From assembly GCA_024278235.1 (NCBI GenBank), contig JAJRTO010000167.1, forward strand, positions 1-37,546: a stretch of 37,546 bases of DNA, given 5' to 3'. Of the stretch, positions 23,053-27,519 are shown in pieces; within the stretch, counting starts at the first letter, position 1; every line of letters begins with the position of its first letter. The notes beneath the pieces were generated by a model. The model made no database searches. It had not been told where the DNA came from and was given only the letters and a program-made list of their open reading frames with translations. Both the position numbers and the translations under genes were made by a program. Source of the DNA: Candidatus Poribacteria bacterium. Lineage in GTDB: Bacteria; Poribacteria; WGA-4E; JAJRTO01.

Positions 23053-23739
23053 TCAGCCACCATCTGAACTATCCCCGCTCTCAGGTTTCCGGACTCGCTC
23101 TTTTAGTTGTGCCAATTCAGAGTCCAAATCATCGGTTTCCAGATGACGGAATTGGTGATCCAGTGAGAGTTCGTCAACTTCTCTGGCGGCTTCTGCCTCT
23201 GCTTCAGCATCTAATACTCGATTGTCGATGCGCTCAAAAGCCCCCATCGCTGTGGAAGTTGAGATACCTGCCATGGTCTCACGGATGATTTTTTCTGCTT
23301 GAGCGCGCTTTTGGCGAGCAAGCAGGAGTTCCTTCTTGCGCTGTGCTTCTTCGATACGCGATTGAAGGGTCATGAGGCCATCTTTGAGCATCACAACGCT
23401 CTCACGATGGGCATCCAGTTGTTGTTTGAAATTAGTGGCGAGTTCCGCGAAAGAGCGTTTACGCCGGAGTGCCTCTTTGGCGCGGCTATCTTCGCCCGTC
23501 TGAACAAATTGGACGGCACGTTGCTCCCACTTCTCAGCGATTGACAGGTTCTCTTTGTATTGAATTTCCAGTCGATGCTGATCACGAATCGCCGCTGCTA
23601 CATGGATCTTCGTCTCCTTGAGTTCGTGCTGCATATCCTCCAGGATCTGATTCAAGACCTTTTCTGGATCTTCCGTATGGTCCAGGATATCGTTGATATT
23701 CGATTTAATGATGCGTTTGAATTTCTCAAGGATAGGCAT
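23053..23739 (-). CDS. PspA/IM30 family protein (paralog 1)
   Basis: MPILEKFKRIIKSNINDILDHTEDPEKVLNQILEDMQHELKETKIHVAAAI; long coiled coil. Confidence 0.9.
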   Translation of the reverse strand: MPILEKFKRIIKSNINDILDHTEDPEKVLNQILEDMQHELKETKIHVAAAIRDQHRLEIQYKENLSIAEKWEQRAVQFVQTGEDSRAKEALRRKRSFAELATNFKQQLDAHRESVVMLKDGLMTLQSRIEEAQRKKELLLARQKRAQAEKIIRETMAGISTSTAMGAFERIDNRVLDAEAEAEAAREVDELSLDHQFRHLETDDLDSELAQLKERVRKPESGDSSDGG

Positions 23740-25478: not shown

Positions 25479-26171
25479 TTAAATTGAAGTGCTATTGGCC
25501 TTGAGTTTTTCTCTTAGAGCGTTGAGATCCTGCTCGATCTGATCTTGTGTTTCGAGATCCTGAAGTCGTTGCTCCAAATCATCCACTTGATTGATCTCGG
25601 CAATCGCAGCGCTCATTACCTCAATATCCTCAACTTTCTGAACCATACGTTCATAGGCATCCAGTGTCGAGGTATCAATAATGGCGTCTACAAATGGTAC
25701 GACAGCAGGTCTTTCTGGCACGGGACGTTTTGGCTTGTATTCTTTCTCGATCTTCAAACGGGTGTGCTTCTGACGAATGGTCTCTAATTGTCCTTCCAAC
25801 TGCTGCAAATTCCGTTTTAATGACTCAATATTCGCCCGTTGCTCGACGATTTGCAGTCGAAGGTTTTCGGCCGTTTTCTGATATGTTTGCCTGCGAACAA
25901 GTGCGCGTCTGGCCAGTTCTTCTTCCCCTCTGCTCAGCGCGAACCCGGCTCGTTCTTCCCAGCGGTGGGCTTCTTTTTCATCCGTTTCAACACTTTGCTC
26001 CATACGTTTGAGGTCAACAAGTGCTGAGGCGATATATTGTTTGACAGAACGAATACTCCCCCGCATTTCTTCAAGCATCAAGCCAGAAACTTTGACTGGA
26101 TCCTCTGCATTCTTGAGAGCATCATTGATATTAGCGCGAACCAACAATTTAACGCGGTCAATGGTTCCCAT
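25479..26171 (-). CDS. PspA/IM30 family protein (paralog 2); start moved from 26189 to 26171
   Basis: MGTIDRVKLLVRANINDALKNAEDPVKVSGLMLEEMRGSIRSVKQYIASAL; AGGAGG RBS about 7 nt upstream of ATG 26171. Confidence 0.88.
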   Translation of the reverse strand: MGTIDRVKLLVRANINDALKNAEDPVKVSGLMLEEMRGSIRSVKQYIASALVDLKRMEQSVETDEKEAHRWEERAGFALSRGEEELARRALVRRQTYQKTAENLRLQIVEQRANIESLKRNLQQLEGQLETIRQKHTRLKIEKEYKPKRPVPERPAVVPFVDAIIDTSTLDAYERMVQKVEDIEVMSAAIAEINQVDDLEQRLQDLETQDQIEQDLNALREKLKANSTSI

Positions 26172-26197
26172 CGGTTGTTTCCTCCTCAATAACAGTA

Positions 26198-26230: not shown

Positions 26231-26277
26231 ACTTGCCATTTGGAGAAAAAGCACAATAATTGGTGGAGGTGGCGGGA

Positions 26278-26578
26278 CACGTTACCCTCCAGTTTCCTGG
26301 AGGCGTGGACTATATCTTCATCCATCTAAACAGGTGGAGCCTGACGTATTATAGGGGACTCCAATTTGCCACGATTTAAGAGCTGGACGGTTTCAACCAA
26401 CCAACTCTGTCAAGTGGCAATGTCTCCTATCATTGCAGTCTCTACAGGACCATATTCTTCCTGATTCAGGACAATATGTTCCCTCGGTATTGCCATAAGA
26501 TGGTACTACCATCTCCCAGGTTTCACCGATGTAAGCCAGGTTTAATCGAGGAGGTTACCCTCCAAGTCGACCGAACCG
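26278..26578 (-). ncRNA. 301-nt group I-like intron in the ssrA T-loop, no internal homing-endonuclease ORF
   Basis: P1 UCGAU^CG-GUU-CGGUCGA with U.G at the splice site; P2 GGAGG-GUAA-CCUCC; P3 CCUGGC/GUCAGG; P4 UCGGU/ACCGA; P5 AGAUGG/CCAUCU; P7/J8-7 motif GAAGATATAGTCC (26320-26307 region); P9 CCTCCAG-GAAA-CTGGAGG (26303-26286); terminal G. Excision restores a perfect tmRNA T-arm. Confidence 0.92.
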
Positions 26579-26794
26579 ATCGAACCCGCGTCCGAAAGTA
26601 CCGCAACAAAGGCTACTACATGCTTTTCCTATGTTTTGAGTTTCACGATGACGTCTCCCATAGGCAGGATGCTATCATCGTTAGCCCAGAAGTGTCTCGT
26701 GCTTTGGATGTCTGAGCATCATCCGCGCACCAGCTCGCTGAGTCGTCGCCCCTACTGCCTCTGCGAGCACCGAGACAGCGGAACGTGGCCACTC

Positions 26795-26827
26795 TTAGGC
26801 GGCCAGTGCCAATTCGTTATAGTCGGC
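26795..26827 (-). other. tmRNA proteolysis-tag reading frame: predicted tag ADYNELALAA-stop
   Basis: GCC GAC TAT AAC GAA TTG GCA CTG GCC GCC TAA, downstream of PK1; resume codon chosen by alignment with the E. coli AUAGUC-GCA context. Confidence 0.8.
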
Positions 26828-26976
26828 AGTTATTGAGTTTTTCCGCTTTTTAACGAGGCCTGCGGAAACCTCGGCATGCAACCTTTGCCACACCTACTCC
26901 CGTCGAAACCTTGTCACCCCCACATAGAAGAGTAATTGAAGCAAGTTAGAATAACCAGAGCCAATCGTTCCCGTTT

Positions 26977-27019: not shown

Positions 27020-27484
27020 CTAGAGCCGTGTGGCTTCCCGAATCGCGCGTTGAGCTTCTTGCTCTCTCAGAGCCTCTCGCTTATCGCCGACCTGTTTGCC
27101 ACGTGCAAGTGCAAGTTCCACTTTAGCGATGCCTCGTGAGAAATACATACGTGTCGGAACGAGCGTGAAACCCTTCGCCTGTGTTGCTGACGCAAGTTTG
27201 GAAATCTCATGTTTGTGCATTAGCAACTTGCGTTTACGCTTGGGTTCATGGTTTGCCCGGTTCCCATGATCGTAAGCCGCAATGTGAAGGTCGTATAGAA
27301 ATAGCTCGTTATCCTCGACACGGGCATAGCTTTCGTTAAAGCTCACTTTGCCGAGCCGCAAAGATTTCACCTCGGTCCCTTGAAGGACGATCCCCGCTTC
27401 GTAACGCTGAAGCAAGTGATAATCGTACCGAGATCGTCGATTCACCGCTATGTTGTGGACACCTTTGTCAACAGCTTGCTTCAT
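27020..27484 (-). CDS. smpB: SsrA-binding protein; start moved from 27502 (TTG) to 27484 (ATG)
   Basis: NRRSRYDYHLLQRYEAGIVLQGTEVKSLRLGKVSFNESYARV, YFSRGIAKVELALARGKQVGDKREALRE; the upstream codons overlap a TATAAT box. Confidence 0.96.
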   Translation of the reverse strand: MKQAVDKGVHNIAVNRRSRYDYHLLQRYEAGIVLQGTEVKSLRLGKVSFNESYARVEDNELFLYDLHIAAYDHGNRANHEPKRKRKLLMHKHEISKLASATQAKGFTLVPTRMYFSRGIAKVELALARGKQVGDKREALREQEAQRAIREATRL

Positions 27485-27490
27485 GGGCAA

Positions 27491-27519
27491 ATTATAGCAC
27501 AAAGCAGCCTGGCACGCAA
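27491..27519 (-). promoter_or_regulatory. Candidate promoter for smpB (TTGCGT-N17-TATAAT, TGC extended -10)
   Basis: Minus strand TTGCGTGCCAGGCTGCTTTGTGCTATAAT, then 6 nt (TTGCCC) before ATG. Confidence 0.6.

Follow-up and report, generated by a model that had tools for sequence, protein, structure and literature searches.

The window, that is, the whole stretch of 37,546 nucleotides that was analysed, comes from a MAG of 536 contigs with a completeness of approximately 91% and a contamination of 3.9%. On its minus strand lies a tmRNA gene (ssrA) in two pieces, which adjoins an intact smpB gene on the same strand. The layout of the locus is as follows.

27020..27502, minus strand: smpB, encoding the tmRNA partner protein, upstream of ssrA (PF01668, E 2.1e-56)
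26921-26261, minus strand: ssrA gene (tmRNA), split; the total consists of two exons and the intron
26579..26921, minus strand: ssrA 5' exon, 343 nt, with the tRNA-like 5' part, the tag frame, the pseudoknot region and the 5' half of the T-arm up to TTCGAT (RF00023; ARAGORN on the joined exons)
26795..26827, minus strand: tag reading frame, with the resume codon GCC, ADYNELALAA and then TAA (ARAGORN on the joined exons)
26278..26578, minus strand: group I intron, 301 nt, starting past the T-loop U, with a terminal G (RF00028; homologues with the same boundaries)
26261..26277, minus strand: ssrA 3' exon, 17 nt, TCCCGCCACCTCCACCA, with CCA encoded (sequence; exon joining)

The coordinates of the gene, the exons and the intron had already been given by a first-pass annotation, and re-reading of the minus strand returned all of them unchanged. 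The Rfam scan suggested there for this strand was performed using cmscan with Rfam 15. The tmRNA model RF00023 matched at 26577-26913(-) over model positions 1-374 with 143.5 bits (gathering score 47, E 1.4e-57), and the Intron_gpI model RF00028 matched in full length (1-253) at 26286-26591(-) with 48.4 bits (E 1.4e-10), which is 1.6 bits short of its gathering score of 50. The two matches abut at the predicted exon-intron junction. The permuted tmRNA model RF04321 also gave a match (26.7 bits), which was discarded because it is weak and overlaps the standard form.

When the exons are joined, a 360-nt tmRNA is obtained, which is accepted by ARAGORN with the complete tag ADYNELALAA. The joining restores, as had been proposed, the T-arm GCGGG-TTCGATT-CCCGC and an acceptor stem of 7 bp including a G.U pair, the latter read from the sequence, and the tag frame and the stop are also intact in this form. 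ARAGORN finds no tmRNA in the unspliced window, so that by this tool the genome would seem to be without trans-translation; the gene is missed by standard tools because of its split form. A second ssrA had been named as a sign that the split gene is a pseudogene. The MAG-wide covariance search returned one ssrA and no second one above the RF00023 cut-off; the other RF00023 matches in the MAG are 70-90 nt long, lie below the cut-off and are probably tRNAs. No group I match besides the ssrA intron was found in the MAG. Downstream of ssrA, two PspA/IM30 paralogues are encoded on the minus strand (23053-23739 and 25479-26189), with a YqiJ-like membrane protein in their neighbourhood.

Under the rules of PMC11915505, the U at -1 and the terminal G assign the insertion to position 7 of the T-loop, where the intron separates loop nucleotides 6 and 7. 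The 5' exon terminates in GGGTTCGAT, and the terminal G of the intron is followed by TCCCGCC. The main elements of the intron are given below, where changes in pairs refer to 23 aligned introns including flanking sequence.

26567..26583, minus strand: P1, exon TCGAT with intron GTCGA, U.G at the 5' splice site (pairing)
26550..26563, minus strand: P2 hairpin GGAGG-GTAA-CCTCC (5/5 pairs changed on both sides, 23 sequences)
26535..26540, minus strand: P3 5' strand CCTGGC (3/6 pairs changed on both sides, 100% paired)
26431..26440, minus strand: P7 5' strand (GACT) and the next bases (pairs invariant in 23/23)
26340..26345, minus strand: P3 3' strand GTCAGG (alignment)
26307..26322, minus strand: GATGAAGATATAGTCC, the end of P8, J8/7 and the P7 3' strand (cmscan, structure, alignment)
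26286..26303, minus strand: P9 hairpin CCTCCAG-GAAA-CTGGAGG (6/7 pairs changed on both sides, 92% paired)

P2 to P9 (P2, P3, P4, P5, P6, P7, P8 and P9) can all be written in the window intron, and P2 and P9 are perfect. The group I hallmarks listed in the first-pass annotation, namely the U.G pair of P1, the GNRA-capped P2 (GTAA) and P9 (GAAA), P7 with J8/7 and the terminal G, are all present. In the alignment, 88% of the cells are paired, and the double-sided changes amount to 121. Shuffled controls gave 36 such changes, and displacing the partner strands gave 20-31. The covariation is located mostly in P2, P3 and P9; P1, P4, P5 and P7 are nearly invariant, P4, P5 and P7 being paired in all 23 introns, and P8 is partly misaligned. 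The U.G pair and three neighbouring P1 pairs are kept in 23/23 sequences, and the terminal G is found in the window intron and in every complete homologue. A P7.1 pairing, ATAGG/CCTAT, is seen in the window, but only 25% of the cells are paired over the whole alignment, in which this region aligns poorly. The presence of a P7.1 region fits the earlier, tentative hint at an IA-like subgroup, for which P7.1/P7.2 helices between P7 and P3' would be expected.

Group I introns in the T-loop of tmRNA genes are already known as a category, as the first-pass annotation had guessed, and the window provides a further instance. They were first reported by Williams 2002, as cited in PMC11915505; this 2025 study catalogued 883 unique intron-form tmRNA genes from 21 phyla. 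The same study describes four T-loop subsites, of which position 7 is the commonest, a mean length of 293 nt for the founding set, and LAGLIDADG genes in approximately 4% of the intron-form genes, mostly in P7.1. The window intron interrupts the same gene at the same site (past loop nucleotide 6, with U at -1 and G as the last intron nucleotide), is similar in length (301 nt) and has the P7.1 region, which bears LAGLIDADG in some members of the group. It differs in that the copy in the window is without an endonuclease gene while keeping a readable C-terminal remnant, and in its host, a Poribacteria-class MAG. The tmRNA of Clostridium botulinum also contains a group I intron, of 287 nt, which was stated as previously shown to be self-splicing (PMC2729099); this host belongs to another phylum, and the likeness is taken from the published description. 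No publication linking tmRNA introns with Poribacteria was found in the literature searched. The present analysis places intron-form tmRNA in Poribacteria, and what it adds is the distribution of the intron in the phylum, a frameshifted LAGLIDADG gene in P7.1 of one relative and the coding remnant in the window intron.

To find homologous introns, a 20-base pattern of the intron core with 19 fixed bases was run against one genome per GTDB r220 species. The pattern returned 29 stretches, and 28 of them are tmRNA T-loop introns at the identical nucleotide; L078, a chance match inside a protein gene, was dropped. Outside Poribacteria, 26 complete introns and one truncated by Ns (L071) were obtained, from Pseudomonadota, Actinomycetota, Bacillota, Nitrospirota and one unassigned bacterium. 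Since the 26 complete homologues outside the phylum occupy the identical nucleotide, the window intron is not a chance match. The Poribacteria match of the pattern is OY282444.1 (G042), a single-contig chromosome with the same insertion site. G042 belongs to the class of the window, which on this ground is placed in Poribacteria. A scan of viral contigs did not retrieve the pattern, and a phage carrier is accordingly not shown. The closest introns outside Poribacteria, those of Ca. Formimonas warabiya and a Desulfitobacteriaceae member (L060, L070; 63-65% identity), share the site and the core with the window intron; however, they are shorter, 233-234 nt compared with 301 nt, and no P7.1 endonuclease remnant was seen in them. 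In the tree, the Poribacteria clade joins the Bacillota introns through a long branch with a support of 89/91, lower than what the tree program counts as firm.

In a Steroidobacteraceae MAG (L066, JAHCAM010000006.1), a LAGLIDADG ORF lies approximately 62 nt downstream of an intron-bearing ssrA and outside the intron. It has 47% identity over 47 aa to the endonuclease in the intron of the Poribacteria genome G062 (E 2.7e-13), as though the endonuclease gene here stood beside ssrA, not within the intron.

A BLAST search of the phylum detected the intron sequence in 3/86 genomes, namely that of the window, G042 and G062. The latter two belong to the same genus (g14) as four genomes with an uninterrupted ssrA, and the intron is thus absent in 4/6 g14 genomes. 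The comparison with intron-less relatives, suggested at the outset, showed the empty site in all 30 of the 30 intron-less Poribacteria loci that were read, many of which have exactly the spliced sequence GGACGCGGGTTCGATTCCCGCCACCTCCA. The window and G042 are 85% identical in the intron and 72% in the 5' exon, and this higher identity of the intron suggests, without proving it, that the intron was transferred. With a cruder exon segment that includes upstream sequence, the excess of intron over exon identity for this pair is 20.9 points, compared with a mean of 6.6 (s.d. 5.2) in 300 pairs of intron-bearing genes; it is the largest of the 300, within a broad spread.

Low-scoring ssrA loci in other Poribacteria were rejected as intron forms in G066 (contig end), G046 (a run of Ns), G049 (a second, intron-less gene) and G006 (a standard gene). 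The contig of the G066 locus (L044, contig C225) breaks off directly behind GGGTTCGAT, precisely where the intron would be inserted, and strains with and without the intron could therefore have been mixed; the rest of the G066 genome gave no intron match. G049 has a divergent intron-less ssrA of 142.9 bits (L047) on contig C1 of 143,886 bases, possibly a plasmid or phage copy, and a standard ssrA on a 5-Mb contig. Two group I matches in G004 (L010 and L012, 70.7 and 31.6 bits) were rejected as ssrA introns, as they adjoin genes for tRNA-Met and tRNA-Glu, not ssrA.

The ssrA intron of G062 (L046) has the same site and core as the window intron, the cores being approximately 80-95% identical to those of the window and G042. 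It is 638 nt long, and an open frame in its P7.1 region encodes a LAGLIDADG_3 domain (PF14528, 33.4 bits compared with a cut-off of 22.5, E 5.6e-8), whereas the window intron has no ORF body. The reading frame changes before the C-terminal part of the G062 gene, which points either to a broken gene or to an assembly error. At the 5' end of the G062 ssrA, the conserved GGTTTCGACGGGAG segment is missing; in G042, this stretch is flanked by two AAAGGTT repeats, and the gap looks like a deletion between the repeats or a misassembly.

Two segments of the window intron can be compared with the endonuclease gene of G062.

26405..26413, minus strand: TTGACAGAG, a possible remnant of the start of the endonuclease gene (TTGACTGAC in G062); short and suggestive only (pairwise alignment)
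26345..26403, minus strand: remnant of the LAGLIDADG C-terminus, reading WLVETVQLLNRGKLESPIIR, between the P7.1 region and P3' (alignment to the G062 endonuclease gene)

The last 20 codons of the G062 gene, WLVETVQNLNRGKSTSPIIR, align with WLVETVQLLNRGKLESPIIR over about 60 nt. No match to the LAGLIDADG domain was found anywhere in the MAG of the window, where these last 20 codons only remain, and the compact window intron is probably a derivative produced by loss of the endonuclease. In the aligned stretch, 15 bases differ and 11 codons are changed, 8 of them synonymously and 3 nonsynonymously. Random changes would give approximately 9.5 nonsynonymous codons, and 3 or fewer occurred in 0/20000 trials. 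From this excess of synonymous changes, the endonuclease most likely stayed functional in the lineage of the window over a large part of the period after its split from that of G062. Constraint on the RNA between P7 and P3' could add to the codon pattern; a bias to third codon positions would not be expected from such constraint.

Three stages of a homing cycle can be seen at one site, namely the empty site, an intron with a frameshifted endonuclease gene and compact introns with a coding fossil, and the fossil offers a way to date the loss of the endonuclease. A more general proposal is that the compact introns of Poribacteria arose by repeated, recent loss of LAGLIDADG genes, that the C-terminal codons overlap the stretch from P7.1 to P3' and so leave coding fossils in the RNA core, from which the loss may be read in introns without an endonuclease gene, and that the introns moved between Poribacteria families. 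We lean slightly towards this proposal.

The covariance models, the same-site homologues, the covariation and the empty sites of relatives bear out the first-pass reading of an intact ssrA split in the T-loop by a group I intron. It is highly probable that a compact group I intron divides the only detected tmRNA gene of the organism at the principal T-loop site known for such introns, that splicing rebuilds the tmRNA and that the endonuclease gene has been lost. A degenerate intron in an ssrA pseudogene, with ribosome rescue by other factors, would agree with the RF00028 score slightly under gathering, with the RqcH/NFACT_N protein encoded in the MAG (E 1.1e-112) and with the damaged ssrA of the relative G062 (D-arm deletion, frameshifted endonuclease gene). 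However, all core helices of the window intron are intact, with P9 and P2 perfect, the acceptor stem, T-arm, tag frame, stop and smpB are intact, and there is no second ssrA, all of which makes decay of the gene very improbable. Even less credible is an artefact of assembly or binning, in which the intron would come from another organism or would have been misjoined. Although the MAG consists of 536 contigs and has 3.9% contamination, the intron is located exactly at a known site with smpB flanking, the introns closest to it come from two further Poribacteria genomes of its class, including the single-contig chromosome G042, and the three group together as a single clade (support 100/99).

The same clade of three introns is what would be expected if the patchy distribution in Poribacteria were due to vertical inheritance with many losses, not to horizontal spread. 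Such a history is unlikely, considering that only 3/86 genomes have the intron and that 4/6 g14 genomes are without it, that the introns of the window and G042 are more similar than the host exons, and that a remnant of the endonuclease is present.

For the preferred reading of a split but functional gene, the following course can be proposed. In the past, the intron would have spread into intron-less ssrA alleles by endonuclease-driven homing; the endonuclease gene would later have been lost by internal deletion, and the intron would have persisted as a splicing-only element. Judged from its sequence, the window intron is probably self-splicing. The transcribed intron would fold, guanosine would attack directly 3' of the U in the U.G pair of P1, and the freed 5' exon would then attack after the terminal G of the intron. 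Ligation of the exons would rebuild the T-loop and yield the 360-nt tmRNA working with SmpB.

The first-pass annotation had further concluded that ribosome rescue in this organism depends on self-splicing. Two RF-1-domain proteins, probably RF1 and RF2, are the only ones in the MAG, and an ArfB-like third one was not found in this approximately 91% complete genome. The MAG does encode the RqcH/NFACT_N homologue (E 1.1e-112), and a total dependence of rescue on splicing is therefore too strong a claim. If the intron splices as proposed, mature tmRNA requires splicing in this organism, which does not hold for all rescue.
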